Shown here in pieces: positions 27,822 to 43,551 of a DNA stretch of 43,551 bases. The notes below the pieces were generated by a model that worked only from the letters and a program-made list of their open reading frames with translations, was not told the origin of the DNA and ran no database searches. Origin of the DNA: an uncultured Clostridia bacterium (GTDB lineage: Bacteria; Bacillota; Clostridia; Christensenellales; Borkfalkiaceae); assembly GCA_947626935.1 (NCBI GenBank), contig CANQUD010000016.1:1-43551 (forward strand), given 5' to 3'. The first letter of the stretch is position 1. Each line of letters begins with the position of its first letter. Made by a program: the position numbers and the translations under genes.

Positions 27822-28504
27822 AAGACATCTTTTTGTTGGATCTCGACGATACGCTCGTCGATTTTCCCCGTGCGGAAGAGCGGAATTTCTTTGAGACGCT
27901 CTCCGCGGTCGGCGTGCAGGCGTCGGGGGAGCTGTACGGACGCTTCCACCTCATCAACGACGCCCTCTGGCGGGCGCTCGAGCGGGGAGAGATGACAAGG
28001 GAAATTCTCAAAGTCCGCCGCTTCGAACTTCTCTTTCGGGAATTCGGGATCGAAGCGGACGCCCAAAGGGCTTCCGATTTCTACTATCGGAATTTTGAGG
28101 GCATCTGCTATCCCTTCGACGGCGCGGCGGAATTTTTGAGGGAACTCTCCGCGCGGGGCAGAGTGTACCTCGTGACGAACGGCGGGGCGAGGATCCAGCA
28201 TTCGCACGTCAGACTTGCGGGATTCGGGGGATATTTGAGCGGCATGTTCATCTCCGAGGAGATCGGCTGCGAAAAGCCCGAGAGGGCGTTCGCCGAATTT
28301 GTCGAGACGCACATCGAAGGATATGAGCGGGAACGCGCCGTCTGGATCGGCGACAGCCTGACCTCGGACATGCTCTGCGCAAAAACCGTCGGCATCGACT
28401 TCATTCTCTATTTTCCCCGACCCATGCCGAAGCCCTACGACGGTCTCAAGGTACGCTCCTATTTGGAAATTCTGAACAAATTATTCCCGAACGATTTCAG
28501 TTGA
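27818..28504 (+). CDS. HAD-superfamily phosphatase, YjjG-like
   Basis: A 228-residue haloacid-dehalogenase hydrolase with all four motifs: DLDDTLVDF (nucleophile Asp8), VTNG, the Lys in GCEKPE, and GDSLTSD. The helical cap between motifs 1 and 2 matches the YjjG/house-cleaning nucleotidase type, which removes phosphate from (non-canonical) pyrimidine nucleotides. Its ATG overlaps the helD stop (ATGA), so the two are coupled. Substrate not certain. Confidence 0.85.
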   Translation: MKDIFLLDLDDTLVDFPRAEERNFFETLSAVGVQASGELYGRFHLINDALWRALERGEMTREILKVRRFELLFREFGIEADAQRASDFYYRNFEGICYPFDGAAEFLRELSARGRVYLVTNGGARIQHSHVRLAGFGGYLSGMFISEEIGCEKPERAFAEFVETHIEGYERERAVWIGDSLTSDMLCAKTVGIDFILYFPRPMPKPYDGLKVRSYLEILNKLFPNDFS

Positions 28505-29045
28505 GATGCTGCGGTGACCCACACCCCTGCCCCTCCCCCCGAAGGGGTAGGCTCTACCCCCTCCGTGGGAGGGGGATGTCGCATCGCGACAGGGAGTGGG
28601 TCACCTTATTTCCCTAGAGCCTACCCCTTCGGGGGGGAGGCTCCCGCGCAGCGGGTGGTGGGGGGGATAACGCCCACCACATTCTCTTGTCGCCCCTCGG
28701 GGTCCCCGCAAAAAAGACAACGTATTTTTGCGGGGTGGTTTAGGGGAGATGTCACGAGCAATGCGAGTGACAGAGGGGTTTCAAAAACCCCTTTCCCCTC
28801 GCAAGCTCGGGGACTTCCCCTACAGGGGCAGCGAGAGCGTTTGCCACGTTCGCCACTGTCTCGGACGGGTAGAGACCTGTCCTCGGTCACCGCTCGCGCG
28901 GGATAAAGCGCTCGCTCACCGCAAAACGCAGCGCACAGCACACTGTGCTGATGCGCAAGAATTGCGTTTTGCGACCCTCAAGGGGGCGCCAAGGGGACTC
29001 TGTGTCATCCCGTCCTACTTCCGCATCATTCCTCTGCAATTTCAC
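28505..29045. repeat. 540-bp gene-free hairpin-repeat cluster
   Basis: No gene is credible. A hairpin with GGGAGGGGG at 28556-28575 and TGTCGC-ATC-GCGACA at 28577-28591 copies 9601-9635. 28616-28667 recurs inverted near 36053-36105. 28690-28974 is an inverted copy of the module at 31076-31310 and contains hairpin A (28920-28973) and hairpin C (28863-28882, loop TCTCTA on the minus strand). Confidence 0.75.
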
Positions 29046-29088
29046 CCAAAAACAAAACCCCTCCCCCCGCATTCCGCGGGGGGAGGGG
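29046..29088 (-). terminator. Terminator after rubrerythrin gene
   Basis: CCCCTCCCCCCGC (29058-29070) pairs perfectly with GCGGGGGGAGGGG (29076-29088). The minus strand continues TTTTGTTTTTG. Confidence 0.85.
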
Positions 29089-29104
29089 ACTTTTCCTGAA
29101 AGAA

Positions 29105-29647
29105 TCAATAATTCTCTTTCTTGACTTCGAAATACGACTGCGGGTGCTTGCAGACGGGGCAGACCTCGGGCGCCTTCGTCCCGACGACGATGTGTCCGCA
29201 ATTCCTGCATTCCCACACCGTCACGCCGCTCTTCTCAAAGACCTGCTTTGTCTCGACATTGTGAAGCAGAGCGCGATATCTCTCCTCATGCGCCTTTTCG
29301 ATGGCGGCGACGCCCCGCATCTGGGCGGCGAGGTCGTGGAACCCTTCCTCGTCCGCTTCCTTCGCCATGCGGTCGTACATGTCCGTCCATTCGAAGTTTT
29401 CACCCTCGGCGGCGTGGAGAAGATTCTCTTCCGTCGTCCCGATCTCCCCGAGCGCCTTGAACCAGAGCTTTGCATGCTCCTTCTCATTTTCCGCCGTCTG
29501 CAGGAAGAGGGCTGCGATCTGCTCATAGCCCGCCTTTTTCGCGACGGACGCGAAGTAGGTGTACTTGTTTCTCGCCTGCGACTCGCCCGCAAACGCTTCC
29601 CAAAGATTCTTTTCCGTCTTTGTTCCCGAATAAGGATTTTTTGCCAT
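29105..29647 (-). CDS. rbr: Rubrerythrin
   Basis: A 180-residue rubrerythrin, a cytoplasmic peroxide-reducing diiron protein of anaerobes. The ferritin-like domain carries the diiron ligands in [21 protein letters not shown] and EKAHEERY. The C-terminal rubredoxin-like domain has two Cys-x-x-Cys pairs (ECRNCG and VCPVCK). Length is normal for the family. The promoter lies at 29681-29709 and AAAGGAG precedes the start. The monocistronic layout fits a stress gene; a PerR box was not recognised. Confidence 0.95.
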
Positions 29648-29680
29648 GGTATTTCTCCTTTTTTTGGATTTGATGATGAA

Positions 29681-29709
29681 AGTATATCAAATTCCGCGGA
29701 AAGTGTCAA
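29681..29709 (-). promoter_or_regulatory. Promoter of rbr
   Basis: TTGACA (29709-29704), 17-bp spacer, TATACT (29686-29681) on the minus strand. Confidence 0.82.
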
Positions 29710-29724
29710 TACCCAAAGCATTGA

Positions 29725-29944
29725 AATGAAAAATTGCGCACGGCGGGACAGAACGTTACCCACCCCCTTACCCTCGTTCTCGGGAGGGGGTGACCCCCGT
29801 AGGGGAAAGACTTCGTTCTCCCTCTTTCTTGCCCCCTCCATGGGAGGGGGTAGGGGGTGGGTCACCTCATCGCCGCCTCCCCCCTTATACTTGAGGGGGG
29901 AGGGTAGGGTGGGGGTGTCTTTTATTGCCGCCTTCGGAATTCCC
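29725..29944. repeat. Gene-free stretch with palindromic repeats
   Basis: AATTGCGCACGGCGGGACAG starts a truncated half of the perfect hairpin at 31025-31057. CCCCCTCC-AT-GGGAGGGGG (about 29841-29859) belongs to the CCTCTCC hairpin family, and CCTCCCCCC/GGGGGGAGG (about 29877-29905) is another hairpin. No gene is seen. Confidence 0.6.
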
Positions 29945-30727
29945 TCACTGTCCGTCGGAGTGCGTCACATTGCCGCTCTTATCGATCGTGCCGTCCGTGC
30001 AGGTTATGACGTAATTACCCGTTTCATTGTCCCAACTGTCGCCTTTTTCGACCTTCAGCCAGTCTGCCGTCGTGCCCGCAAAGTCTATTTCCGTCAGCGC
30101 GGCGCACCAGTCGAATGCGTTTTCCCCGATCGCGCTCACATCGGCGGGCAGGGCGATCTTCTGGAGTAATTTGCAGTGGCAGAAGGCATAATTTCCGATC
30201 GAGGTCAATTTGCTCTTGCCGCCGAATGTCAAGCTTGCAAGCGAAGTGCAGCCATAGAACGCGCGGTGGCCGATCGAGGTCACGTTGGCGGGAATGACGA
30301 CGCTGGCAAGGGGCGTGCACCCATCGAAGGCTTCCGCTCCAATCGAAGTCACCGCCTTCCCCTCATAGTAGTTGGGAATGACGACCTCCGTGCGATCTCT
30401 GTCATCGCCGATGCCCGAGAGGGTGTAGGTATCAGACGCCTCGTCGAGCTGATACGACAGCCCTTTGGTATAGACGTCGCTGTACCCGCAAGTCTCACAG
30501 GCGTTCTCGGCGTCGAACGTGTGGGTTCCCGCGGAAAATTTTTCGCCGCAGATGGTGCAGACCTTCCAATGCCCGCTGTCGTCCACGCGGAACGTCTCTG
30601 CGGTGTGGAAGTGCCCGTCCGCTCCCGTTTCGCCCTCGGGCGTCCCGCCGCTGCACGCCGCAAGGCCGAGACAAAGGCAGAGAGCCGCCGAAAGCGCAAA
30701 AATGGGCGTCAAAAATTTGTGTTTCAT
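29945..30727 (-). CDS. BspA-type leucine-rich-repeat lipoprotein
   Basis: A 260-residue lipoprotein with lipobox LAAC (Cys25). After a short linker come two Cys-x-x-Cys pairs (CTICG and CETCG, about residues 57-83), probably a small metal knuckle. At least three BspA-like (LRR_5) repeats follow with the pattern VTSIGxxAFxGCTxLASVxIP (about 125-205). Such proteins sit on the outer face of gut bacteria and mediate contacts. The upstream region contains a promoter, a structured RNA and a terminator (30808-30992), so the gene may be controlled by that leader. GGAG precedes the start. Confidence 0.85.
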   Translation of the reverse strand: MKHKFLTPIFALSAALCLCLGLAACSGGTPEGETGADGHFHTAETFRVDDSGHWKVCTICGEKFSAGTHTFDAENACETCGYSDVYTKGLSYQLDEASDTYTLSGIGDDRDRTEVVIPNYYEGKAVTSIGAEAFDGCTPLASVVIPANVTSIGHRAFYGCTSLASLTFGGKSKLTSIGNYAFCHCKLLQKIALPADVSAIGENAFDWCAALTEIDFAGTTADWLKVEKGDSWDNETGNYVITCTDGTIDKSGNVTHSDGQ

Positions 30728-30807
30728 TTTGTTTTTCTCCTTTGAATGTGTTTTTCCCTTCGTTTTGGGGGATCCTTCGCCTATGGCTCAGGATGAGCGC
30801 ATGCGGG

Positions 30808-30841
30808 CAAAAAATAAGGGCGTTCCACATTGGGAACGCCC
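30808..30841 (-). terminator. Terminator of the structured RNA
   Basis: GGGCGTTCC (30818-30826) pairs with GGAACGCCC (30833-30841). The minus strand then reads TTATTTTTT. Confidence 0.85.
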
Positions 30842-30958
30842 GCAGTGAGTATCCCGATGTGTTGCGCCACAACTTTCCACGTTTGAGAATACGGAAAGAA
30901 GGATACACCTTGCCAAAGCTGTAGCCATATCCTCAAACATTTATTCAGTTGCGGCGCA
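30811..30958 (-). ncRNA. Candidate structured non-coding or leader RNA
   Basis: A predicted transcript of about 148 bases runs from the promoter at 30964-30992 to the terminator at 30818-30841. Right at its 5 prime end a closing stem forms (30947-30957 with 30864-30874; AGTTGCGGCGC with GCGCCACAACT, one mismatch). An asymmetric internal loop is followed by a second 14-bp stem (30925-30938 with 30881-30894, two mismatches) and a large apical region that can refold through GGATA/TATCC. No open frame of note is inside. The layout of long rod plus internal bubble is 6S-like, but the terminator 83 bases before the LRR lipoprotein start would also suit a riboswitch. I do not recognise a known family. 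Confidence 0.6.
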
Positions 30959-30963
30959 GTTTC

Positions 30964-30992
30964 AGTATATCACGGGCGGAGAAAAATTGCAA
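30964..30992 (-). promoter_or_regulatory. Promoter of the structured RNA
   Basis: TTGCAA (30992-30987), 17-bp spacer, TATACT (30969-30964) on the minus strand. The expected start is about 30957-30958, the first base of the closing stem. Confidence 0.75.
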
Positions 30993-31024
30993 TATTTTCA
31001 TGAAAAAAATTAAAATTGAAAATT

Positions 31025-31057
31025 GCGCACGGCGGGACGGAACGTCCCGCCGTGCGC
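31025..31057. repeat. Perfect 15-bp hairpin
   Basis: GCGCACGGCGGGACG pairs perfectly with CGTCCCGCCGTGCGC around a GAA loop. A truncated half is present at about 29733-29750. Confidence 0.75.
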
Positions 31058-31075
31058 TCGTCGCCCCTTTTAGGT

Positions 31076-31310
31076 CGCAAAACGCAATTCTTGCGCATCA
31101 GCACAGTGTGCTGTGCGCTGCGTTTTGCGGTGAGTGAGCGCATTATCTCGCGCGAACGGTGACCGAGGGCGGGAATCTACCCGCCCGAGACGATGTCACA
31201 AAGTGACAGAGGGGTTTCAAAACCCTTCAGTCTCGCTCCGCTCGACAGCTCCCCTAAACCACCCCGCAAAAATACTTTGTCTTTTTGCGGGGACCCCGAG
31301 GGGAGCCAAG
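31076..31310 (+). repeat. Multi-hairpin module, copy 1
   Basis: Hairpin A: CGCAAAACGCA (31076-31086), bulge ATTCT (31087-31091), inner stem GCGCA-T-CAGCAC, AGT loop, GTGCTGTGCGC, outer arm TGCGTTTTGCG (31119-31129). Hairpin C: GGGCGGG-AATCTA-CCCGCCC (31167-31186). Hairpin D: TGTCAC-AAA-GTGACA (31194-31208). A long GC/A-rich hairpin follows at about 31262-31293. An inverted copy is at 28690-28974. Confidence 0.7.
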
Positions 31311-31329
31311 TCTCTTACCCCCCTCGTCT

Positions 31330-31440
31330 TGCGTCATTCTGAGCGTAGCGAAGGATCCCGTGGAGGAAAATACGGACTTCGTTCTTCGGGATGTTTCGGC
31401 TACGCCCAACATGACGCGGAGGGATACAACTTTTGATTGT
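31330..31440. repeat. GCGAAGGATCC-type short repeat and gene-free flank
   Basis: CATTCTGAGCGTAGCGAAGG starts at about 31335, related to 9658-9684 and, inverted, to about 30769-30796. Such short repeats are common between genes in many bacterial genomes. No gene is seen before the promoter at 31468. Confidence 0.55.
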
Positions 31441-31467
31441 TAATTTCCGATTCCAAGCTCACAACGT

Positions 31468-31496
31468 TTGCACGTTTGGACAAAATGTGTTATAAT
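31468..31496 (+). promoter_or_regulatory. Promoter of the topoisomerase pair
   Basis: TTGCAC (31468-31473), 17-bp spacer, TATAAT (31491-31496). Confidence 0.78.
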
Positions 31497-31527
31497 TAAC
31501 ATGAAATATTACGCGAAAGAGGTTTCT

Positions 31528-33591
31528 ATGGTACAACAGCAGCATTATGACGCGAGCGACATCACCATTCTCGAGGGTCTGGAAGCCGTCCGTCTCCGTC
31601 CCGGCATGTACATCGGCTCGACGGGCAAGAGCGGACTTCACCACATCCTCTGGGAGATCGTCGACAACGCCATCGACGAGGCGGCAAACGGTTTCGCGGA
31701 CAAGATCGACGTACATATCTACAAGGACAACTCCATTTCCGTCGAGGACAACGGGCGGGGCATTCCCACCGACATCCACCCCAAGACGCACGTCTCGGGC
31801 GTGCAGGTCGTCTTTACCCAGCTTCACGCGGGCGGCAAGTTCGACGAGCACAACTATTCCTTCTCGGGCGGTCTGCACGGCGTCGGCGCTTCCGTCACGA
31901 ACGCCCTTTCCAAGTGGCTGAACGTACGGGTCTGCCGCGACGGAAAGACCTTTGAAATGGGCTTCAAGTCCTACTATGACCCCAAAAAGAAGAAGTATGA
32001 ATCGGGCATTCCGACGGGACCGCTGACGGACGTCAAGAAGCGCACCAAAAAACACGGCACCTTTGTGCATTTCCTGCCCGATGACGCCGTGTTCGGCGAA
32101 GTCGTCGTCGACACCGAGACGGTCAACCGCCGCCTGCGGGAACTTGCCTATCTCAACAAGGGCGTCTCGATCTCTCTCACCGACGACCGCATGACGATGA
32201 ACGAAGCCATCGCGGGCGAGGAGTCCGAAGAGGGGACGCAGGTCCAGCTCGGCATCGACGGCATGCAGCCCTATTCCGTCACATACTGTTTCGACGGCGG
32301 CATTGCCGACTTCGTCTCCGCGATCAACGAAAAGAAGGAGACCCTCTACCGCAAGCCGCTCTCCTACCGCGGGGAGAAGGACGGCATCATCGTCGAATTC
32401 GCCATTCAGCACACGACGGACTTCACCGAGAGCCTGTTCTCCTTCGTCAACAACATTCCGACGCCCGAGGGCGGCACGCACGAGGCGGGCTTCCGCAGCG
32501 GTCTGACGCGCGTCCTCAACGCCTACGCGAGGGATAATAAGCTCCTCAAGGCGCAGGAAGGCTTCCTCGGCGACGACTTCCGCGAGGGACTCAACGTCGT
32601 CCTCTCGGTCAAGATGAAGAACGTACAGTTCGAGGGGCAGACCAAGACCAAGCTCGGCAACCCCGAAGCGAGGGCGAGCGTCGAGAGCGTCACGGTCGAG
32701 GGCTTGAAGGCGCTCTCCTCCGACGCCAAGAACAAGAAGGCGTTTGACGAGATCATCAAAAAGGCGCAGGGCGCGGCGAGGGTGCGCGTGGCGACGCGGC
32801 AGGCGAAGGACACCGCCCGTGCCAAGAACTCCATCGATTCCCTGCAGCTCGTCGGAAAACTTGCTTCCTGTACGGGGAAGAAGCCCGAACTCAACGAACT
32901 CTTCATCGTCGAGGGCGATTCGGCGGGCGGCACGGCGAAACAGGCAAGGGTCAGGCAATTCCAGTCCATTCTGCCTCTCCGCGGGAAGCCGCTCAACGTC
33001 GAGAAGAAGCGTCTCGACCAAGTGCTCGCCAATGAGGAGATCCGCACGATGATCTCCGCCCTCGGCGCGGGCGTGGGGAACGATTTCAACGTCGACAAGA
33101 TCAACTATCATAAAGTCATCATTCTCTCCGATGCCGACCAGGACGGCTTCCACATCCGCTGCATTCTCCTGACCTTCTTCTTCCGCTACATGCGGGAACT
33201 CGTCAACGCAGGGCACGTCTACATCGGCATGCCGCCCCTCTACAAGGTCTACAAGCAGAACAGTTCGGTCGAGGAATATGCCTACGACGACAACGAACTG
33301 CAGGAGAAGATCCAGAAAGTCGGAAAGGGGTACCTCATCCAGCGCTACAAGGGTCTCGGCGAAATGAGCGCCGACCAGCTCTGGAAAACGACGATGGACC
33401 CCGCGCGGCGCAACCTCACGCAGGTGACGGTGGAAGATGCCATCGCCGCCGACGACATGATCACGAAGCTCATGGGCGACGCCGTCGAGGGAAGAAAGGA
33501 ATTTTTGAACAAGCACGCCAATTTCAACAAAGTAGACACATTCCTTGCGCGTGTCAACAAGAAGGGAGGTACGGGCGATGAAGAAGAATGA
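31528..33591 (+). CDS. parE: Type IIA topoisomerase subunit B (topoisomerase IV ParE / GyrB-like)
   Basis: A 687-residue ATPase subunit. The GHKL ATP-binding part has [17 protein letters not shown] and [15 protein letters not shown]. The Toprim part has [12 protein letters not shown] and [12 protein letters not shown]; the usual sequence at the latter is DADxDGAHIRT, so two normally constant positions differ. The C terminus has the usual [15 protein letters not shown]. The start at 31528 has AAAGAGG upstream; earlier ATGs overlap the promoter. The A subunit overlaps by 14 bases. ParE rather than GyrB is favoured because the partner lacks a GyrA box; if wrong, it is gyrB. Confidence 0.8.
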
Positions 33592-36016
33592 GATGCGTGA
33601 AGTCGTGCCGCAAGGGCAGCTCTTTGTCACTCCCTTGGAGGAAGTTTTGCCCCAGTCCATGCTCCCGTATGCGGAGTTCGTCATCCTCGACAGGGCGCTT
33701 CCCCGCGTGGAGGACGGCTTGAAGCCCGTCCAGCGCAGGATCCTCTATACAATGTATGAAATGGGACTGATGCCCGACAAGCCGCACAAGAAATCGGCGC
33801 GTATCGTCGGCGATTGCATGGGAAAATATCACCCCCATGGCGACAGTTCCGTCTATGACGCGATGGTCCGCATGGCGCAGGACTTCAACATGGGCATGAC
33901 GCTCGTCAACGGGCACGGCAACTTCGGCTCCGTCGACGGCGACCCCGCCGCCGCCATGCGCTATACCGAGGCAAGGCTCGAGCCGCTCGCGCTGGAGCTT
34001 CTGAAGGACATCGACAAGGACACGGTGCCTTTCTCGCTGAACTTCGACGACTCGCTCAAAGAGCCGAATATGCTCCCCGGGCGCTTCCCCAACCTTCTCG
34101 TCAACGGCGCCTCGGGCATCGCCGTCGGACTTGCGACGAACATTCCGCCCCACAACCTCGGGGAAGTGATCAGCGGCGTCGTCGCCTACATCGACAACCC
34201 CCGCATCTCCCTTCAGAAGATGATGAAGTACATTCCCGCCCCCGATTTCCCGACGGGCGGCAAGATCATCGGCAGGGAACTCGAACAGGCATATGCGACG
34301 GGCAAGGGCAAGATCTCCGTCCGCGCCAAAGTCTCCGTCGAGATCGCCGAGGGGGAACGCCCGACGGGAGAGGACGATCCCAACGTCAAGCGCAACATCG
34401 TCATCACCGAATTTCCCTATCAGGTCAACAAGGCGAACCTTCTTCGCAAGATCGCAGAACTGCGGGAGCAGAAGAGCGAACTTGCGCCCATCACAAAAGT
34501 CGTGGACGAGAGCGACAGGAGCGGCATGCGCGCTGTCATCGAACTGCGTGGCACGGGCAAGGATGCCGAGAACGTCCTCGCCGCCCTCTATAAATACACC
34601 GAACTCGAGGTGAGCTTCGGCATCAACATGGTGGCGATCGCAAAGGGCAAGCCCATGCTCATGGGACTTCTCGACATCATCGGCTACTATGTGGAATACC
34701 AGCGCGAGGTCGTCCTCCGCAGGACGAAATTCGACCTCAATCAGGCAAAAGAGCGCTGCCATATTCTCGAAGGTCTCATCATCGCCGTCCGCAACATCGA
34801 CGAAGTCATCAAGATCATCAAGTCCGCCGAGAGCACATCCGACGCGCGGGAAAAACTCAAAAAGCGCTTTCAGCTCTCCGAAAAACAGGCGCAGGCGATC
34901 CTCGATCTCCGTCTTGCCCGCCTGACCAAGCTCGAGGTGTTCAAGCTCGAGGAAGAACTCAAACATCTCAAGAAGCTCATCGAGGAATTGACCGCGATCG
35001 TCGGCAGCAACAAGCTGCAGCTCGAGGTCGTCAAAAAGGAGATCACCGAACTGGGCAAGAAGTACGCCGTTCCGAGAAAATCGTCCCTTCCCGAGAGCGA
35101 GGACGAGGCATTTGCGGAGCGCTACGACGTCTATGTCCCCGGGGAACCCGCACAGCTCTTCCTCACCGCCGACGGCAAGCTCAAGTGCGTGGAAGAGAAG
35201 AAACTCAAGGGCGTGACGCAGGAGATCAACGCTTCCATGAAGAAGGGGAACATCATTGTGAAGAAAGTTCCCATCCTCTCCAATGCCGACGCGCTCGTCA
35301 TCACCGACAAAGCGAACTGCTACCGCTTCAACATGCGGGAATGCATGCGCAAGTGGTCGGATGCGGGACTCAAACTCTCCGACATCACCGACGCCGCCAA
35401 GGACGAGAAGGTCGCCGCCGTGTTCTCCGAGGAAGAGAAGGGGACCCTGCTCTTCGTCACGGAGAAGGGCGAGATCATGGGACGCGACCTCGAGGACATC
35501 GCCATGGGCAAGGGGTCTGTTGTCAAGATGGAAGAGGGGGACAGGCTCGTCTCCGTCGAATGGTACGATCCCGACGAAAAGACTCTCTTCTTCGTCACGA
35601 GAGGGGGCATGTGTCTCAACATGAAGATGGACGAAGTGCCCGTCAGAAAGACGGCGGCGACCTGCGTCAAGGGCATGGGCGTCAAGAAAGGGGACGCCGT
35701 CCTCTGGGCAAGCCAGATCGAGGACTACGGCGAACTCGTGCTCGCGACCTCGGGCGGCAGATTCAAGCGCGTCATCGTCTCGCAGATCGATCCGCTCAAC
35801 CGCGGTGCGATGGGTGTCCGCGTCGCCGACATGAAGGAAGATAAGGTCATCTTCGCGGGCTATGTGACGGAGCCGTACTCCCTTGCGGTGTTCACCGAAG
35901 AGGGGAATGTAGAAGCGCTCTCCACCGAGGACATTCCGATCGATGCGACGTACACGCGCGGCAGAACGCTCAAGGTCAAATGGACGGCAAAGGAACTCAT
36001 TCAAATCAAATATTGA
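33578..36016 (+). CDS. parC: Type IIA topoisomerase subunit A (topoisomerase IV ParC / GyrA-like)
   Basis: An 812-residue DNA breakage-reunion subunit. The catalytic Tyr129 is in [10 protein letters not shown]; the helix-turn-helix region has [15 protein letters not shown] beta-propeller C-terminal domain (about 510-812) follows a coiled-coil segment. A canonical GyrA box (QRRGGRG) in the first propeller blade is not visible; the matching region reads [13 protein letters not shown], so DNA wrapping and true gyrase activity are doubtful, and topoisomerase IV is the better guess. Some N-terminal motifs look gyrase-like. GGGAGG precedes the ATG at 33578. Confidence 0.8.
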
Positions 36017-36330
36017 CGAGCCGCCTAATCCGTCCGTGGAGTGATTGGGAATTCCCCCCCACCACCCGCTACGCGGGAGTCTCCCCCCCCGAAGGGGTAG
36101 GCTCTCCCCAGACCTTACCCCCCACGGGGTGGAGCAACGCATTCTGCGAAAAGTCCAGTGAACTTTTCGCGCGTTGCGACAGGAGCGAGCGCATTCTCTC
36201 GCGCGAGCGGTGACCGAATGCGGGTCTCTACCCGCATGAGACAGGTGGCACGGCGAAGCCGTGACGAATGGGGGGGATCACGCCCACCACTACGTCACCA
36301 CCCCCTTCATCACCGTAAAAAAACGCACAA
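36017..36330. repeat. Gene-free multi-hairpin module, copy 2
   Basis: Hairpin A: GCAACGC (36134-36140), bulge ATTCT (36141-36145), GCGAAAAGT (36146-36154), loop, ACTTTTCGC (36162-36170), GCGTTGC (36171-36177). Palindrome CTCGCGCGAG at 36198-36207. Hairpin C: ATGCGGG-TCTCTA-CCCGCAT (36218-36237). Hairpin D: CACGGC-GAA-GCCGTG (36249-36263). The part near 36053-36105 is an inverted copy of 28616-28667. Confidence 0.75.
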
Positions 36331-36356
36331 AAAACTCCCGCAAAGGGAGTTTTTTC
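36331..36356 (+). terminator. Terminator downstream of parC region
   Basis: AAAACTCCC (36331-36339) pairs with GGGAGTTTT (36345-36353) around GCAAA, ending in a T-run. Confidence 0.8.
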
Positions 36357-36429
36357 ATCCATGGAGAAATTTGGAAGCATTCTCCGCGCATTCGGCGGGG
36401 CGGAGAGAACCAAAATTTTTCAAATTCTC

Positions 36430-36458
36430 TTTACACGGGAAAAAATTTGTTGTATAAT
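36430..36458 (+). promoter_or_regulatory. Promoter of the membrane-protein pair
   Basis: TTTACA (36430-36435), 17-bp spacer, TATAAT (36453-36458). Confidence 0.8.
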
Positions 36459-36481
36459 GATACAGAACGAAAGAGGGTCTC

Positions 36482-37312
36482 ATGGGCGTTATTTTCGGAA
36501 ACTGGAAATACATCTTCAAAAATCTCTGGTCTGTGCTGCCGTTCGCAGCCTTACCGGCGGTTTGTCTTGCCGTGACCCTCGACTATGACGCGATCCATAC
36601 CGTGACGCACGCCTTCTTCACGGGCGGTCTGCACGATATGGAATTTTTCTATCTCTTCCGCGCCTTCTCGATCGTGCGGGTGGACCATGTGTGGAGCGCT
36701 CTCATCTCCGTGCTCGCGCTCCTCGTTTCGAGTGTCTGCTTCACTCTCATGCTCATCTTTGTCGAGAAGCACATGCGCATCGGGAAGAGGACCTTGAGCG
36801 GGCTGAAGCGGCAATTCACATGGCTGATCTTGCCCGTGTTCTGCATGGCGATCTTCTACCTCGCCCTCTATGAAGTGTTTGCGGTGATCGTCTCCGCCCT
36901 TCTCTATGTCGTGTGCAGGCTCCCGTCGACGGCGTTTTTGTACATTCTCTTCCTCGCCGTCATCGCCATGTTCGCCTTTTTGCTCCTGTACGTCGTGACC
37001 CTTTTGTATCTCTTCCTTCCCTGCAAACAGGTGACGGGATTCAAGACATATGACGCGTTTTTCTATTCCTACCGTCTCATGACGGGGGTGCGGGGCAAGC
37101 TGCTCTTGTCCTTCGGCATCTCCATCACGGGGAGCTTTGTGATCCTGTCCGCGGCGTCCCTTCTGCCCTTGTCCGTCTTTATCATCATCGTGCTCATTCT
37201 CTGCGCCTTCCTCTTCATGAGCTTCGGCGTGCGCATGGAGACGGTGTACTTCCGCACGGATAAGCTGGACAGAGAGGACCAACTCAAGAGTTATCGGGAG
37301 TTTTCGCTATGA
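36482..37312 (+). CDS. Multi-pass membrane protein of unknown function (1)
   Basis: A 276-residue protein with about six strongly hydrophobic segments, beginning with a short cytoplasmic stretch (MGVIFGNWKYIFKNLW). AGAGGG precedes the ATG. No family recognised. Its stop overlaps the start of a second membrane protein (ATGA at 37309-37312). Both begin with a similar amphipathic N terminus leading into a membrane helix, so they may be distant paralogues forming a complex; that is inference. Confidence 0.75.
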   Translation: MGVIFGNWKYIFKNLWSVLPFAALPAVCLAVTLDYDAIHTVTHAFFTGGLHDMEFFYLFRAFSIVRVDHVWSALISVLALLVSSVCFTLMLIFVEKHMRIGKRTLSGLKRQFTWLILPVFCMAIFYLALYEVFAVIVSALLYVVCRLPSTAFLYILFLAVIAMFAFLLLYVVTLLYLFLPCKQVTGFKTYDAFFYSYRLMTGVRGKLLLSFGISITGSFVILSAASLLPLSVFIIIVLILCAFLFMSFGVRMETVYFRTDKLDREDQLKSYREFSL

Positions 37313-38253
37313 GATTCCGCCATGCCGTCCATATCGCATCGGAAAATTTTTCATCCGTATTCAAATTGCTCCTCTATCGCCTGTTTGTGGCGGCGATCTT
37401 CGGGAGCCTCGCCTATGTCATTCTCTCGCTGGGGCTTTCCGCCATCACGGAGAGCTTGGAAGTCGCAAATCTGAAAGATCTCGCGGGAGAATTTCTCCAT
37501 GCGCTCGTGACGGGGCAGGGTGAGATTCTGCAGGGCTTGCCGCAGCAGTTCAGGGACGCCTTCACGGCGCTTTTGAAGCTCATCGCCTTCAACCAGCCCT
37601 CGATCATCGGGTGCTGCATCGGGATCGTCTTTTTATACCTGCTCTCCCGTTTCGTGAACGGGCTTGCGCTCTTTGCGATCGCGAACAGCGTCAACGACAG
37701 GATGGGAACATACGCGCGGACGTCCTTCTCGCAGTCCTACTTCAAGAGCATCGGGAAGGCGGCGCTCTATCAGGTCATCTATGTGCCGCTCTGCTTCGTC
37801 TATGACGCGCTGATGCTCGCGGCATGCTGGTTTTTCTTCTTCTATGCGCCCTCGTTCCTGCCCTCTTGGGGGTTCGTCACCGTGCTCATCGCCGTGTCGC
37901 TGACCCTGACGGCGATCGTTGCCTTGGAAGCGCTCAAGATGACGCTCATCTCGGCATGGATCCCCGCAGTCGTCGCAGACAAGGACGGGATCACGCACGC
38001 CTTCCGCGCGAGCGTCAGGAGCGGGAAGTCCTTCAAAGCGAGATACGGCGCCTTTGTCACGGCGATCTATCTCATTCTCGCCGTCAACGTGCTGTTCGCG
38101 TTTGCGACGGTCGGAAGCGCCCTGCTCCTCACCGTCCCGACCAGCTACATCTTCCTCTTGAGCTTACAGTTCGTCAACTACTATCTTGACAGCGGCAAGA
38201 AATATTTCATCACCAAAAATACCATTGTGGACGCTTCCGAAATGCAGCCGTAA
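37309..38253 (+). CDS. Multi-pass membrane protein of unknown function (2)
   Basis: A 314-residue protein with about six hydrophobic segments and a soluble loop between the first two (around residues 50-85). Near residue 225 a polar segment, VVADKDGITHAFRASVRSG, resembles cytoplasmic loops of membrane-integral YIHY/DUF-type proteins, but I cannot name the family. It is coupled to the preceding gene by ATGA. A small GGACG/CGTCC hairpin with TTTT (38259-38275) may end the unit. Confidence 0.75.
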   Translation: MRFRHAVHIASENFSSVFKLLLYRLFVAAIFGSLAYVILSLGLSAITESLEVANLKDLAGEFLHALVTGQGEILQGLPQQFRDAFTALLKLIAFNQPSIIGCCIGIVFLYLLSRFVNGLALFAIANSVNDRMGTYARTSFSQSYFKSIGKAALYQVIYVPLCFVYDALMLAACWFFFFYAPSFLPSWGFVTVLIAVSLTLTAIVALEALKMTLISAWIPAVVADKDGITHAFRASVRSGKSFKARYGAFVTAIYLILAVNVLFAFATVGSALLLTVPTSYIFLLSLQFVNYYLDSGKKYFITKNTIVDASEMQP

Positions 38254-38258
38254 GGGCC

Positions 38259-38275
38259 GGACGGAGCGTCCTTTT
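38259..38275 (+). terminator. Weak terminator-like hairpin
   Basis: GGACG-GAG-CGTCC followed by TTTT, between the membrane-protein pair and the phosphoglucomutase gene. The stem is only five pairs. Confidence 0.35.
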
Positions 38276-38292
38276 CAAAGAAGGAGGGATCC

Positions 38293-40008
38293 ATGAACTA
38301 TCAGCAAAACTATCAAAAATGGGTGAACGACCCGAGACTTCCCGCGGACTGCAAAGAGAGCCTTCTCGCGATCGAAACGGACGAAAAGGAGAAGGAATAC
38401 CGCTTCGGCGGGGAGCTTGAATTCGGCACGGCGGGCATGCGCGGCATCATCGGCTGCGGCATGAACATGATGAACTGCTTCACCGTCATGCGGGCGACCG
38501 AAGGGCTTTCCATGTACATCAAGACGCTTCCCGAAGAGGACGTCCGCCGCGGCGTCGTCATTTCATACGACACGCGGAGAAACAGCCGCCTGTTCGCCGA
38601 AAAAGCGGCATCCGTGCTCGCCAAGAACGGCATCAAAGCCTATCTCTTCGACGACGTGCACCCCGTTCCCATGCTCTCCTATGCCGTCCGATACCTGCAC
38701 ACGATCGCGGGCATCATGATCACGGCTTCCCACAATCCCAAGGAATACAACGGCTATAAAGTCTACGGCGAGGACGGAGCGCAGATGTCGCCCGAGGCGA
38801 CGGCGGTCGTCGTGAAGTTCATCAACGGCATCGACGACTATCTGTCCGTCTCGGGAGAACCCGACAGCCCGCTCATCGTCCCCGTTCCCAAGGAAGTCGA
38901 CGAGACGTACATTCGGGAGCTTTCCAAGCTGACTCTCTCCGAGGAAGCCGTCAAGAAATGCGGGAAGGACCTCAAACTCGTCTATACCCCCGTGCACGGC
39001 TCGGGCTATGTCCCCGTCATGACGATCCTCAAAAAGCTCGGCATCCACGTCACCGTCGTCGAAGAACAGACGACGAAGGACACCGAGTTCTCGACGGTCA
39101 AGGTCCCCAACCCCGAATTCAAGGAGACCCTCTCCATGGGCATCGACCTCGCCGAAAAGATCCACGCCGACGTCGTGTTCGGCACCGACCCCGATTCCGA
39201 CCGTCTCGGCGTCGCCGTCAAGAACGGCAAGGGCGAATTTACGGCGCTCTCGGGCAATCAGGTCGGCATTCTGCTCCTCGACTACATTTTGACCCGTCTC
39301 AAGGAAGAAAACGCCCTTCCCGAAAACGCCGCCGTCGTCAAGTCCTTCGTTTCGACGGGCATGGCGAGAGCGATCTGCGAGGACTTCGGCGTCGCCCTCT
39401 TCGAGACGCCCGTCGGATTTAAGTTCATCGGCGAAAAGATCAAGGAATGGGAAAAGGACGGCTCGCACACCTATGTGTTCGGCTTTGAGGAGTCGTGCGG
39501 ATACCTTCGCGGCACGCACGCACGGGACAAGGACGCTGTCGTCGCGTCCATGCTCTGCGCCGAAATGGTCTGCTACTACACCTACATCGGCAAGACGGTC
39601 TGGGGGAGACTCGAGGAGATCTACCAAAAGTACGGCTTCGTCCTCGACAAGAATGTCTCCGTCCAGTATTCGGGTCTCAACGCGATGAAGGAGATGAACG
39701 CGGTCGTCGATGCGCTCAAGTCCGTCAAGGTCACATCCTTCGGGGACTTCTCCGTCGAAGCGGTGCGGGACTACTCGAACGACGTTCGGACGGCGGCGGA
39801 CGGAAGCAAGACGCCCCTTCATATCCCGAAATGCAACTGCGTCTACTATGAACTTTCGGGCGGGAGCTTTGTGTGTGTCCGTCCGAGCGGAACGGAGCCG
39901 AAACTCAAGATCTACTATTCCATCCGCGCCAAGGACGAGGCGGCGGCGGAGGAGAAGATGAACGCCGTCAAGGCGGACGTCGACAAGCTCCTCGCATCCG
40001 TCCGATGA
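38293..40008 (+). CDS. pgcA: Phosphoglucomutase / phosphomannomutase
   Basis: A 571-residue alpha-D-phosphohexomutase, interconverting glucose-1-phosphate and glucose-6-phosphate for glycogen, cell-wall and lipid-sugar synthesis. The phospho-serine is Ser146 in TASHNPKEYNGYKVYG. The metal loop is GTDPDSDRLG, the sugar-binding loop GFEESCGY, and the phosphate-binding motif RPSGTEPKLKIYYSIRA. Length matches the long Bacillota PgcA group rather than GlmM. AAGGAGG precedes the ATG. A strong terminator follows at 40026-40055. Confidence 0.93.
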   Translation: MNYQQNYQKWVNDPRLPADCKESLLAIETDEKEKEYRFGGELEFGTAGMRGIIGCGMNMMNCFTVMRATEGLSMYIKTLPEEDVRRGVVISYDTRRNSRLFAEKAASVLAKNGIKAYLFDDVHPVPMLSYAVRYLHTIAGIMITASHNPKEYNGYKVYGEDGAQMSPEATAVVVKFINGIDDYLSVSGEPDSPLIVPVPKEVDETYIRELSKLTLSEEAVKKCGKDLKLVYTPVHGSGYVPVMTILKKLGIHVTVVEEQTTKDTEFSTVKVPNPEFKETLSMGIDLAEKIHADVVFGTDPDSDRLGVAVKNGKGEFTALSGNQVGILLLDYILTRLKEENALPENAAVVKSFVSTGMARAICEDFGVALFETPVGFKFIGEKIKEWEKDGSHTYVFGFEESCGYLRGTHARDKDAVVASMLCAEMVCYYTYIGKTVWGRLEEIYQKYGFVLDKNVSVQYSGLNAMKEMNAVVDALKSVKVTSFGDFSVEAVRDYSNDVRTAADGSKTPLHIPKCNCVYYELSGGSFVCVRPSGTEPKLKIYYSIRAKDEAAAEEKMNAVKADVDKLLASVR

Positions 40009-40025
40009 CCGAAATAAGAAAATTT

Positions 40026-40055
40026 TCCCTCGGGGTATTTTCCGAGGGATTTTTC
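40026..40055 (+). terminator. Terminator after pgcA
   Basis: TCCCTCGG (40026-40033) pairs with CCGAGGGA (40042-40049), followed by TTTTTC, immediately before the next promoter's -35. Confidence 0.85.
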
Positions 40056-40084
40056 TTGACAGGAGAGGGGAACTGTGCTATAAT
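40056..40084 (+). promoter_or_regulatory. Promoter of the tetR-ABC operon
   Basis: Perfect consensus: TTGACA (40056-40061), 17-bp spacer, TATAAT (40079-40084). Confidence 0.88.
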
Positions 40085-40085
40085 A

Positions 40086-40107
40086 ACAAATGTTATATAA
40101 CACATGT
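40086..40107. promoter_or_regulatory. Likely TetR-family operator
   Basis: A 22-bp dyad with 9 of 11 matching arm positions around the perfect core TGTTATATAACA (40091-40102), directly after the -10 box and before the tetR start. Likely autoregulatory. Confidence 0.7.
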
Positions 40108-40124
40108 CATAAACGGAGGGAAAA

Positions 40125-40697
40125 ATGCCGAAAAAGAGAAGGATCACCGAAGAGATGGCGCTTGCCGCGGCGGCGGAGATCGTCAAGACGGGCGGAGCGG
40201 AAATGCTCAACGTCCGTGCGCTCGCCAAGGCGCTCGACTGTTCTACGCAGCCGATCTATTCGCTCTTCCGCAGCATGGAAGGGCTATGGCGTGCGCTCAT
40301 CGCGGATGCAAAGCGACAGTATCGCCGCCACATCGACGCCTACCTCAACGAAGAGGGAACAAACGGCTACGAGGCGTACGGAAAGGGGTTCGTCAGTTTT
40401 GCAAAGAAGGAGCAGGGACTCTTCCGTCTCCTCTTCCTGACGGGCAAGGGCACGCCCGATCCCTTCCTTGACGACATCGAGACGGAAATGATGACCCTCT
40501 ACCATATGCCCGAGGAGACGGCTGCCGCCTTCCATGCGGACATGAGCGTCTTTTCGTTCGGACTTGCGGTGCTCGTCAACAAACAGGCGGACGCCCTGTC
40601 GGAAGAGCAGATCTCCGAGGCATTCAAGCGGCAATTCTATGCCCTCTATTCCTTCTACTTCCCTAACCGCGAACGCTTTTGGGAGAAAACTTCTTAA
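40125..40697 (+). CDS. TetR-family transcriptional regulator
   Basis: A 190-residue one-component regulator. The N-terminal helix-turn-helix lies at about residues 10-55 (LNVRALAKALDCSTQPIYSL). The C-terminal ligand domain resembles the TetR_C_33/WHG type and has no motif naming the ligand. ACGGAGGG precedes the ATG. It leads an operon with an ABC exporter and should repress it through the operator at 40086-40107 until an inducing compound appears (inference). Confidence 0.88.
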   Translation: MPKKRRITEEMALAAAAEIVKTGGAEMLNVRALAKALDCSTQPIYSLFRSMEGLWRALIADAKRQYRRHIDAYLNEEGTNGYEAYGKGFVSFAKKEQGLFRLLFLTGKGTPDPFLDDIETEMMTLYHMPEETAAAFHADMSVFSFGLAVLVNKQADALSEEQISEAFKRQFYALYSFYFPNRERFWEKTS

Positions 40698-40709
40698 TTT
40701 TATATATCC

Positions 40710-41603
40710 ATGAACAGTATCGAGATCAGACATCTGAAGAAATATTTCGGCGAGGTCAAGGCCGTGGACGACATCTCCTTTTCCGTCGGAGAGGGGGAGT
40801 TTTTCGCGTTCCTCGGCGTCAACGGCGCGGGGAAGAGCACGACCATCTCCGTCCTCTGCGGCAAGGAGCAAAAGACGGACGGGACCGTCGAAATCGAGGG
40901 AAAACCCGTCGACAAGGACACAAAACGCGTACTTGGGGTCGTTTTTCAGGACAGCGTGCTCGACAGGGCGATCTCCGTGCGCGAAAACCTCGCCTGCCGC
41001 GCCGCACTCTATGGAATTACGGGAATGGGGTTCAAAAACCGCCTCGGAGAGCTGAATGAACTGCTCTCCCTCGACGAGATCCTCAAGCGTCCCGTCGGAA
41101 AGCTCTCGGGCGGACAGAGGAGAAGGGCGGATATCGCCAGAGCGCTCATCCATTCGCCCCGCATCCTCATCTTGGACGAGCCGACGACGGGTCTCGACCC
41201 CCAGACACGCATGCAGGTATGGGAAGCTGTGCATATGCTCCGTAAAACGCAGCATATCACGGTGTTTTTGACCACGCACTACATGGAAGAAGCGGCTGAT
41301 GCGGACCATGTCGTCATTCTCGACGGCGGGAAGATCAAGGCGGACGACACCCCGCTCGATCTCAAAAATCGGTACGCCTATGACGCAATTACCCTGTACC
41401 ATGTCCGAGAGGAAGCGCTCCGGAATCTCTCCATACCCTATGAGAGGGTAGGAGAGGGCTTCCGCATCCGCATCGCAAGCACGGCTGAGGCGACGAAACT
41501 CATCTCGGCGTACCCCGATCTTTTCACCGATTACGAGGTGACGAAAGGGGGCATGGACGAAGTTTTCCTTGCCGTCACGGGAAAACGGGGAGGGGACGTA
41601 TGA
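40710..41603 (+). CDS. ABC-2 type transporter ATP-binding protein
   Basis: A 297-residue ATPase of a DrrA/CcmA-like ABC exporter. Walker A GVNGAGKST (36-44), Q-loop VFQDSV, signature LSGGQRRR, Walker B ILILDEPTTGLD, and switch His in TTHYMEE. A C-terminal domain of about 80 residues is typical of multidrug or antibiotic exporters. It begins 12 bases after tetR with no clear ribosome-binding site, and overlaps the permease start by four bases. Confidence 0.92.
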   Translation: MNSIEIRHLKKYFGEVKAVDDISFSVGEGEFFAFLGVNGAGKSTTISVLCGKEQKTDGTVEIEGKPVDKDTKRVLGVVFQDSVLDRAISVRENLACRAALYGITGMGFKNRLGELNELLSLDEILKRPVGKLSGGQRRRADIARALIHSPRILILDEPTTGLDPQTRMQVWEAVHMLRKTQHITVFLTTHYMEEAADADHVVILDGGKIKADDTPLDLKNRYAYDAITLYHVREEALRNLSIPYERVGEGFRIRIASTAEATKLISAYPDLFTDYEVTKGGMDEVFLAVTGKRGGDV

Positions 41604-42505
41604 GAACGCAGCTCTTCTCCCTCATCAAGCGGAACTGTACGGTGTTTTTCAAGGACAAGGGAGTATTTTTCCCGTCTCTCCTCTCGCCGCTCATCCTGCT
41701 CTTTCTCTTCATCGCTTTCTTGGGGAATGTCTACCGCGACAGTATCCGATCCATTGTCGAGGGATTTGAAATTTCAAGTTCTCTCGTCGAGAGCATCGCG
41801 AGCGGCTGGCTCGTCTCGTCCCTTCTCTCCGTCTGTGCCGTGACGGTCGCCTTCACCGCAAACACCGTCATGGTACAGGACAGGGTCTCGGGCGCCCGCA
41901 ATGATTTTTTGGTCTCTCCCGTCTCCGAACGCGTCCTCGCGCTCTCCTACTTTCTCGCGACCTATCTCGTCACCGCGGCGATGTGTTTCGTTGCGCTCGG
42001 GGCGGGATTCATCTACATTGCCGCGGCGGGCTGGCACCTCTCCGCCTTGGACGTCCTATGCACGGTCGGCGACCTCTTGCTCCTGATCCTCTTCGGAACG
42101 TCCCTTTCCACGCTCGTCTGTACGTTCCTGAAGTCGCAAGGCTCCGTCACGGCGGTACAGGCGACCGTCTCCGCCGCTTACGGCTTCCTCTGCGGCGCCT
42201 ATATGCCCCTTTCGAACCTCACTTCATGGCTGAAAAACGCCCTCATGTTCCTGCCGGGGACGTACGGCACGGGACTGACGCACCTGCACCTCATGGGCGG
42301 AGCGATCGGGGCAATGGCGGATGAGGGGATCCCCGCGCAGATGATCGACGGAATGAAAGAGGGCTTCGACTGCACGCTGACCTTCTTCGGAAGCGACGTG
42401 AAAGTCTGGGTCTGCTATCTCGTGCTTGCCGCGGCGGGTGTTTTGCTCCTCGGCGTCTGCCTTGCGATCCATTTGAGACCGAAGAGGGGGGCATCTGAAA
42501 CTTGA
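41600..42505 (+). CDS. ABC-2 type transporter permease
   Basis: A 301-residue membrane protein with six predicted helices, of the ABC-2/DrrB type (partner of the ATPase just upstream). A large polar loop lies after the first helix. The motif GAYMPLSNLTSWLKNALMFLPG between helices 5 and 6, quoted here as LSNLTSWLKNALMFLPG, is characteristic. Start overlaps the ATPase stop (ATGA). The pair probably exports a hydrophobic compound, drug or peptide; substrate unknown. Confidence 0.88.
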   Translation: MRTQLFSLIKRNCTVFFKDKGVFFPSLLSPLILLFLFIAFLGNVYRDSIRSIVEGFEISSSLVESIASGWLVSSLLSVCAVTVAFTANTVMVQDRVSGARNDFLVSPVSERVLALSYFLATYLVTAAMCFVALGAGFIYIAAAGWHLSALDVLCTVGDLLLLILFGTSLSTLVCTFLKSQGSVTAVQATVSAAYGFLCGAYMPLSNLTSWLKNALMFLPGTYGTGLTHLHLMGGAIGAMADEGIPAQMIDGMKEGFDCTLTFFGSDVKVWVCYLVLAAAGVLLLGVCLAIHLRPKRGASET

Positions 42506-42531
42506 CAAGGACACCCATAAAATGGTATAAT
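42502..42531 (+). promoter_or_regulatory. Promoter of dut
   Basis: TTGACA (42502-42507), 18-bp spacer, TATAAT (42526-42531). The -35 box contains the permease stop codon. Confidence 0.8.
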
Positions 42532-42553
42532 GCTTCCTACAGGTCAAACGGCT

Positions 42554-42982
42554 ATGAAAGTCAATGTAAAAAAACTCGATCAAGACGCAAAAATGCCCGC
42601 ATATTCGTCGAATTTTGCGGCAGGCGCCGACCTCTATGCTTTGGAAGGGGCGGAGATCGGAGCGGGCGAGACGAAATTCCTGCATACGGGGATCGCGATC
42701 GAACTTCCCGAGGGGACGGTCGGTCTCGTCTACGCGCGGAGCGGTCTCGCGTCGAAGCAGGACCTTGCGCCCGCCAATAAGGTGGGGGTCATCGACTGCG
42801 ATTACCGCGGCGAGATCATCGTCGCCATGCACAATCACGGAAGGGAGACGCGCACCGTCCTCGCGGGGGACAGGATCGCCCAGCTCGTCATCGCGCCCTA
42901 CTATACGGCGGAGTTTGAAGAAGCGGAGACACTCTCAAATACCGTCCGCGGCGTCGGCGGCTTCGGCTCGACAGGGAAATAA
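42554..42982 (+). CDS. dut: dUTP diphosphatase
   Basis: A 142-residue trimeric-type dUTPase that splits dUTP to dUMP, keeping uracil out of DNA and feeding dTMP synthesis. All five family motifs are visible: AGADLYA, ARSGLASKQ (usually PRSG), GVIDCDYRGEI with the catalytic Asp, GDRIAQLVI, and RGVGGFGSTGK. The start at 42554 is preferred; an in-frame ATG at 42530 lies within the -10 box. There is no strong ribosome-binding site (AGG about 10 bases upstream). Confidence 0.93.
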   Translation: MKVNVKKLDQDAKMPAYSSNFAAGADLYALEGAEIGAGETKFLHTGIAIELPEGTVGLVYARSGLASKQDLAPANKVGVIDCDYRGEIIVAMHNHGRETRTVLAGDRIAQLVIAPYYTAEFEEAETLSNTVRGVGGFGSTGK

Positions 42983-42987
42983 GTGTT

Positions 42988-43202
42988 TCGAACGTATTTT
43001 GTTTTTTTCGTCCACCCCTTGCCCACCCCTTGAGGGAAGAATTTTGCATTCTGCCAAAGATTGATAATCTTTGGCGCAAAATTCTTATAGCATTTGCCCA
43101 TATGCATGGGCAAATGCCGACCAAACGCGGGTCTCTACCCGCGCGCGAGGGTGCCCCCGAAGGGGGGCGGAAGGGGTGTCCTTCAAAACAAAATACGTTC
43201 GA
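42988..43202 (+). mobile_element. 215-bp MITE-like element carrying a multi-hairpin module
   Basis: Perfect 18-bp terminal inverted repeats: TCGAACGTATTTTGTTTT (42988-43005) and its reverse complement (43185-43202), with weaker similarity continuing inward. Inside: hairpin A AAGAATTTTGC-ATTCT-GCCAAAGATT-GAT-AATCTTTGGC-GCAAAATTCTT (43037-43086), given here in its parts; hairpin B GCATTTGCCCAT/ATGGGCAAATGC (43090-43117); hairpin C CGCGGG-TCTCTA-CCCGCG (43126-43143); hairpin D CCCCC-GAA-GGGGG. No open frame of note, and no clear target duplication. Confidence 0.65.
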
Positions 43203-43474
43203 GCGATGTAACACTGTTCATCAATTAGGTCTGTCCGAATACGTTATATGTACGGACATTAAGGTTCCCGTAGGGTACCGCGTCGCGACACTGCGCAGTT
43301 TGCGCAGCTTTGCGGAAACGCAAAGCCGTCGCCTGAAACGCAGGTCGCTCCTTTTCCAAAAAATCTTGCTTCGCAATATTTTTTGGATGCCTTTGGCTCT
43401 GGCGGGGCGCCACGCGCAGTGATTGGGAAATGTTCCGCTTTCATACCCTCTCCGTGGGAGAGGGTCACCGCATT
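43203..43474. other. Gene-free stretch with small hairpins
   Basis: No gene is supported. GTCCG/CGGAC flank 43230-43257; a CCAAAAAAT/ATTTTTTGG hairpin is near 43357-43385; CCCTCTCC-GT-GGGAGAGGG with GTCACCGCA (about 43445-43472) belongs to the family at 9601 and 28556. GTGATTGGGAA near 43420 recurs at about 36041. Confidence 0.5.
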
Positions 43475-43551
43475 CCTTGCCCACCCCTTGAGGGAAGAAT
43501 TTTGCATTCTGCCAAAGATTGATAATCTTTGGCGCAAAATTCTTATAGCAT
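43475..43551 (+). repeat. Direct repeat of 43017-43093 at the window edge
   Basis: 77 bases are identical to 43017-43093 and run to the end of the window. They contain the whole of hairpin A with its ATTCT bulge, but the terminal inverted repeat of the first copy is absent on the left side. Confidence 0.85.

Follow-up and report, generated by a model that had tools for sequence, protein, structure and literature searches.

A three-hairpin cassette in palindromic modules and partial tRNA-gene copies of Clostridia: fold, insertion sites and possible mode of placement

The stretch of DNA analysed here, referred to as the window, is the 43,551-nt contig CANQUD010000016.1 (C16) of assembly GCA_947626935.1, from an uncultured Clostridia bacterium of the family Borkfalkiaceae whose metagenome-assembled genome (G000) comprises 1.675 Mb in 55 contigs and is 93.7% complete. 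The subject of this article is a unit of about 115 bases (range about 110-170 nt), designated V, which is composed of three hairpins in fixed order: hairpin A, with a 5-nt bulge in its 5' arm, a short hairpin B, and hairpin C, whose loop is TCTCTA or a near form, followed by a GAGAC or GCGAG terminus. The window contains four copies of V and one cut copy (two of type V1, one of V2, one of V3, and a cut V3), and V lies inside larger palindromic modules, the hosts, which we name M1-M5 for this analysis. Scores in bits refer to R1, a search model built from alignment A3, which consists of 20 V2-, V3- and V6-type sequences and no V1. The features are as follows.

31076..31191, forward strand: V1 cassette; hairpin A at 31076-31129, with the ATTCT bulge at 31087-31091; ends in GAGAC
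31134-31157, forward strand: V1 hairpin B, GTGA-GCGC...GCGC-GAAC
31167-31186, forward strand: V1 hairpin C, loop AATCTA
28858..28973, reverse strand: inverted copy of the V1 cassette; hairpin A at 28920-28973; hairpin C loop TCTCTA
36130..36242, forward strand: V2 cassette; TGGA lead, hairpin A at 36134-36177, ends in GAGAC; R1 score 116.1 bits
36185-36208, forward strand: V2 hairpin B, GCGA-GCGC...GCGC-GAGC
36218-36237, forward strand: V2 hairpin C, within the V2 cassette
43037..43149, forward strand: V3 cassette; hairpin A at 43037-43087; R1 score 115.2 bits
43090-43117, forward strand: V3 hairpin B, a plain helix
43126-43143, forward strand: V3 hairpin C, within the V3 cassette
43495..43551, forward strand: another copy of the V3 cassette, truncated where the contig ends; 77-nt identical repeat; matched by R1
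31057..31310, forward strand: host module M1 holding V1, ends set by eye; V1 replaces the GGA of the empty module
36053..36290, forward strand: host module M2 around V2, ends set by eye; right arm GGTGGCACGGCGAAGCCGTGACG
43017..43180, forward strand: part of host module M3 around V3, reading CCTTGCCCACCCCTTGAGGG, V3, GGTGCCCC...; contains hairpin D

A preliminary description of this DNA, made from the letters alone, had located hairpin A at 31076-31129, with an inverted copy at 28920-28973, at 36134-36177, and at 43037-43086 in V3 with an exact copy at 43495-43544. These positions are correct, and in every one of them ATTCT stands on the 5' side between the outer and the inner stem; hairpin C is likewise as described, with loops AATCTA or TCTCTA on the stems GGGCGGG, GGACAGG, ATGCGGG and CGCGGG. 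Two of its statements need amendment. The hairpin D that it placed behind hairpin C exists, but we assign it to the surrounding host module rather than to V because one V1 sequence has differing right sides. The stems, which it called unrelated, are not so across the whole unit: over a 60-nt stretch from hairpin B to hairpin C, V1 and V2 are 85% alike, and V3 62%.

The search for further copies that the preliminary description called for was productive, as at least 64 R1 matches were found in the window's genome when the best 150 of 684 candidates were scored, and V was found in relatives as well. Although made without V1, R1 recovers the V1 copies of this genome; in the window it matches V1 at 31075-31192 (71.5 bits) and also the inverted copy, the two being 91% complementary in a repeat comparison. 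By BLAST, in searches that scored the best 40 of 55, 58 and 105 candidates, near-full copies number at least 22 for V1, at least 16 for V2 and at least 21 for V3, together with several fragments at contig ends, and the V2 of the window is one of at least four copies that are 100% identical. A fourth type unseen in the window, V4, accounts for 23 rows in the stretches that were fetched, of which two are truncated at an end. Around 59 V copies the neighbouring genes occur in every combination of orientations. A strand or replication bias was considered for the same set and dropped: only 21 of the 59 have a positive GC skew on the strand of V (p 0.036), and neither AT skew nor coding bias is significant.

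Beyond this genome, at an E-value of 0.001 and among 201 genomes, R1 matches at least 64 of the 103 genomes of the window's genus and at least four genomes outside it; these counts are lower bounds, since 18 candidates per genome were scored in the search of relatives. In a class-wide sample of 391 genomes, searched at E 0.0001 with nine candidates scored per genome, a match was found only in the genome already known. The core pattern of V also finds 62 matching stretches in genome_contigs, all from uncultured Clostridia bacterium bins named Lapin-0xx, a name that we take to denote rabbit gut.

Covariation in the three hairpins was evaluated in three sets of sequences: A3, aligned with MAFFT; A4, with 49 rows (48 distinct), which includes V1 and out-of-genus copies; and A6, with 37 copies mostly from a second genus (g3). 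The latter two alignments were fitted to the model and so lean towards structure. Changes on both sides of a pair are found at 15 of 32 pairs in A3, where 97.6% of cells pair, at 27 of 30 in A4 and at 26 of 30 in A6; in each set 0 of 500 shuffles reached the observed pairing or covariation score, and sliding the partners by one to three columns lowers pairing to 25-52%. Covariation thus appears to give strong support to the predicted fold of V, with the reservation that kinship among sequences can itself beat such shuffles, which are not R-scape. The earlier reading of these hairpins as a family under structural selection is borne out in its genome-wide extent and in its pair changes on both sides.

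Stems could also stay matched without selection, if template switching between the arms of a DNA hairpin were to 'correct' one arm from the other. Among three subfamilies, 23 compensated pair states stand against 19 single-change states, so that intermediates are scarce, and G-T and A-C pairs are nearly even within subfamilies, both of which accord with such correction. Correction would, however, be expected to fill the bulge, and yet the one-sided bulge persists across stem families and genera, and the loops are kept, as is the G-A mismatch of helix B, where 59 of 94 distinct rows have A opposite G; we regard this explanation as very unlikely. Helix B itself is either a plain helix or carries GTGA/GAAC or GCGA/GAGC around GCGC, and in longer V variants it contains AGTA/GAA, the loop E motif.

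The bulge, described at first as constant, is ATTCT in four stem families of the window's genome, but point variants exist there (TTTCT and ATCCT in V1, GTTCT in V4) and it drifts in relatives, where GTTCT, GTCCT, ACTTCT, AGTTCT and one ATTGC are found; in genus g3 it is mostly GTTAA or near forms. In a scan for an outer stem, a 5-nt 5' bulge and an inner stem, carried out on the window and 60 loci of the genome, ATTCT gave nine distinct bulged hairpins, as compared with a mean of 0.455 and a highest value of 5 for 200 random 5-mers, a count biased in favour of ATTCT by the choice of loci that hold V. Point variants of V2 or V3 account for seven of the nine and V4 for an eighth, and the last, in the window away from V, is due to chance; V1 escaped the scan owing to one mismatch. 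The copy number in the genome is the stronger backing for V.

The manner in which V sits in its hosts can be read by comparing modules with and without it. Empty sites read AGG/GGA/AGT, AGG/GGA/GATGTC or GGG/GGA/GCTG, and filled sites consist of AGG or GGG, then V, then the unchanged right side, such that V substitutes for GGA or GA. Empty and filled modules number 48 and 23 for M1a, 46 and 5 for M1b (the five filled rows being four V and one false match), 25 and 10 for M3b, and 5 and 3 for M2. Among 105 V copies with distinct flanks, 94 lie directly 3' of a C3+..G3+ strand, compared with 3.7% of random positions (n=4000, in the fetched loci); of the remaining 11, eight stand behind a comparable strand that ends in two G, and three are the tRNA-linked copies L178-L180. 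When 103 of the 105 copies, from the window's genome and its relatives, are assigned to four V types and six host sites, 16 of the 24 possible combinations occur, indicating that V and host are exchangeable across the genus. V may in turn receive insertions: a module of about 55 nt (mostly CCGCCC...TTCT...GGGCGG, then ...GAAGTA) lies within hairpin B at L063, L070, L101 and L112 and in V4 copies, for example L009:462-623, which implies that V itself serves as a host.

A second type of host is found in the sister genus g3, of the same family, where a second model, R2, matches 36 of 57 genomes at E 0.01. With one best locus taken per genome for 29 genomes (L278-L306), ARAGORN detects an intact tRNA no more than 300 bp from V at 13 of the 29 loci, and tRNA pieces were recognized by eye in four more (L294, L299, L301 and L305). 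The flanks of V were placed on the tRNA for 18 copies, drawn from the 16 loci at which an intact tRNA is present (L178-L180 among them). In 10 of these (L180 included) a partial copy upstream of tRNA-Arg(ACG) runs to nt 27, is followed by V and resumes at nt 30 or 31; in three, a downstream partial copy runs to nt 47, is followed by V and resumes at nt 51 or 52; and in two tRNA-Gly copies V stands antisense after nt 9. L294 resembles the nt 47 junction by eye, and L300 fits on its right side alone. At the tRNA junctions, as in the palindromic modules, 2-4 letters are thus exchanged beside a helix. At L283 and L286, V flanks tRNA-Arg(ACG) on both sides within partial tRNA copies, the 5' half and V lying upstream, and V and the 3' part lying beyond a terminator-like hairpin.

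In g3, V stands in the tRNA-Arg leader behind promoter-like sequence, and this layout recurs in several species, as would be expected were V a cis-acting regulatory RNA of adjacent genes, such as a terminator, attenuator or leader. We judge this highly improbable, given that tens of V copies per genome adjoin different genes in the full range of orientations noted above, and that Rfam at its gathering score yields no match to V in the window.

On a tree of V sequences, in which 17 of 34 inner branches are weakly supported, the contexts of V need 15 changes, where the minimum possible is 3. Shuffled labels average 18.6 changes and need 15 or fewer in 5 of 200 trials. The two comparisons together suggest repeated entry or exchange, with part of the contexts inherited.

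The sequences themselves show the covarying fold, the number of copies, the modules with and without V, the many pairings of V types with hosts across the genus, and the positions within tRNA-gene copies. On this basis we favour, with moderate confidence, the reading that V is a non-autonomous mobile cassette whose fold is under selection and which is placed by structure. Selection would keep the three-hairpin fold with its one-sided bulge in hairpin A. Placement would be governed by structure more than by target sequence: V would settle on the 3' side of a helix already present and take the place of 2-4 host letters. In the window's genus the hosts are palindromic repeats, and in g3 they are partial tRNA-gene copies. 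The site pattern and the mixing of types and hosts suggest that V moves as a unit; a trans-acting enzyme would presumably read the fold, and the moving or recognized form may be RNA or single-stranded DNA. Between these two we prefer RNA, as the tandem G-A and AGTA/GAA motifs of helix B lean that way, and the g3 copies stand in tRNA leaders behind promoter-like sequence.

Several observations weigh against the mobile-cassette reading. In the window's genome, among the copies listed, all full V2 (16 of 16) and all full V3 (21 of 21) lie in one host arm each, such that the host may be the mobile unit there, and only V1 and V4 have several hosts. No locus was seen that lacks V in one genome and carries it in another: the two genes that flank V2 have their matches apart from each other in close relatives, and ten loci that were read offered no comparable empty site. 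Of the 18 copies placed on tRNAs, three (L179, L300 and L304) agree badly with a tRNA junction or match it at a single edge, and tRNA contexts are clustered on the V tree, as the shuffled labels above indicate. As to the fold, the further pair types in A3 number 23, below the shuffled mean of 26.3. G-T variants show no clear excess over A-C within the three subfamilies (10 vs 7), and the excess over all cells (65 vs 13) comes with 47 of the 65 G-T at one pair. Finally, no mobilising enzyme was found, Y1_Tnp, RVT_1 and the PF23343 Rep having been tested in the window's genome and other transposase families not searched.

The confinement of V2 and V3 to one arm each is in line with an explanation in which V is a mere inner segment of moving host modules akin to MITEs (miniature inverted-repeat transposable elements) or REP sequences, and V variants are shuffled by recombination. 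The host modules are indeed highly repeated, with symmetric ends, and some V1 copies have their left half from one module and their right half from another. This explanation is possible, though in our view doubtful, as it does not readily accommodate the number of type-by-site combinations across the genus, the tRNA-gene copies of g3 in which V lies without a palindromic module, or the abundance of host modules without V, such as those of M1a. By eye, no obvious target-site duplication accompanies host module M1 in 34 copies.

Candidates for a mobilising partner were sought among known enzyme families. The RAYT-like partner suggested in the preliminary description did not materialize, as Y1_Tnp and RVT_1 each gave 0 matches in the window's genome; they are present in 25 and 24, respectively, of the 103 genomes of the genus, and for RVT_1 a helper in another cell or on a missing contig is possible. 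An IS200-type Y1_Tnp link was dropped after four loci were read (L143-L146), with no Y1_Tnp match in the window's genome. L143 and L145 contain neither V nor host patterns, and L146 contains one loose host pattern; at L144, a Y1_Tnp locus of genome G056, the gene is followed at about 250 bp by a host-like module and preceded by one loose V-pattern match, which may be chance. The idea of an HUH Rep partner (PF23343), with V as the origin beside the rep gene, came from L177, in which 48 bp separate V from a rolling-circle Rep gene (L177:1672-2355) whose relatives match in 50 of 201 genomes. It was dropped, given that V occurs in one of 25 rep loci, that one (L181) being the same place that had raised the idea, and that the window's genome has no rep match. 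In the loci read, the PF23343 Rep genes seem to be part of small integrative elements, one of which has an integrase-like gene behind it. A phage link was also rejected: the first pattern gave 0 matches in viral_contigs, three looser patterns matched 61, 0 and 11 stretches, and because R2 had 0 matches in those 72, the loose matches are taken as chance.

V fits none of the repeat families with which it was compared. As the preliminary description held, no described repeat with its layout emerged: Rfam at its gathering score found only a tRNA elsewhere in the window, and in relaxed scans, which covered V2, V3 and out-of-genus stretches and left out V1 and V4, matches to V were far below the cut-off and only tRNA genes came near it. 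Among the open-licence papers listed in literature searches, none describes V, judging by titles and opening lines of abstracts.

REP sequences are imperfect intergenic hairpins with a one-sided irregularity, present in many copies, associated with RAYT (Y1) transposases and marked by a conserved 5' tetranucleotide. V resembles them in being an imperfect, many-copy intergenic hairpin element with irregularity on one side, but its genome has no Y1_Tnp match, and V1, V2 and V3 share no 5' tetranucleotide; hairpin A is led by GGAG in V2, V4 and V6 and by other letters in V1 and V3. Group IIC introns insert behind hairpins and are thus, like V, structured and placed at a hairpin foot, but V is far shorter, its genome gave no RVT_1 match, and neither the Rfam scan of the window nor the relaxed scans (V2, V3 and out-of-genus stretches) matched an intron family. 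Rickettsia palindromic elements are short palindromes inside genes, and, as with V, their mobiliser is unknown; compared by description, V differs in keeping a three-hairpin fold and a fixed position beside a helix.

BOX elements of Streptococcus, which are not known to encode an enzyme, are nearest to V in spirit, judging by layout. They are described as boxA-boxB(n)-boxC composites with predicted stem-loop folds and with modules lost or gained (PMC3049150), and to that extent they are, like V, small, interspersed, composite and stem-loop forming; V differs in layout (sequence was not compared) as a single three-hairpin unit within hairpins or tRNA-gene copies that replaces 2-4 letters. MITEs, defined in the same source as short, highly base-paired elements without a gene of their own (PMC3049150), share with V its shortness, strong pairing and lack of genes. 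However, V has no terminal inverted repeats by eye, as it starts with TCGC, TGGAG, AAGAAT or GAAAAT and ends in GAGAC, GCGAG or GAGAAN, and host letters are lost rather than duplicated, the comparison of empty and filled sites showing no target-site duplication at the edges of V, where GGA or GA is replaced. A survey of human-microbiome RNA mentions 250 palindromic candidates (PMC8040213).

As for the wider surroundings, nested palindromic modules fill intergenic space at 28510-28720, 29740-29915, 36053-36096 and 43444-43470, many of them inserted in one another; the kinds include CCCTCTCCGTGGGAGAGGG, CTTGTCGCCCC..., GGTGGGCGTNATCCCCCCC and modules with TTTCGAACGTATTTTG ends. The far arm of M1 around V1 (31248-31306) carries a nested hairpin in its loop, CACCCCGCAAAAATAC...GTCTTTTTGCGGGGACC. 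Among neighbouring proteins at 25458-42979, eight of the 10 scanned match ordinary families (UvrD-type helicase, HAD hydrolase, rubrerythrin, BspA-type leucine-rich repeat protein, type II topoisomerase B and A subunits, ABC-2 transporter protein and dUTPase), and those at 36482-37309 and 37309-38250 match no family.

A bolder form of the mobile-cassette reading, which we consider unlikely, is that V is a mobile RNA cassette inserted by structure: a folded transcript or single-stranded form would join the junction of two helices in another structured RNA or gene, and replace 2-4 linker letters, after which an enzyme provided in trans would fix it in DNA. If true, V would be a short bacterial element whose targets are folds, tRNA-gene copies being one of its niches. 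Short structured repeats are common in bacteria, but for most of them neither the choice of site nor the persistence of the fold is well understood. In V the fold is maintained through paired changes, and the sites are legible letter by letter in many genomes, tRNA-gene copies included, which makes a model of structure-guided insertion directly testable.

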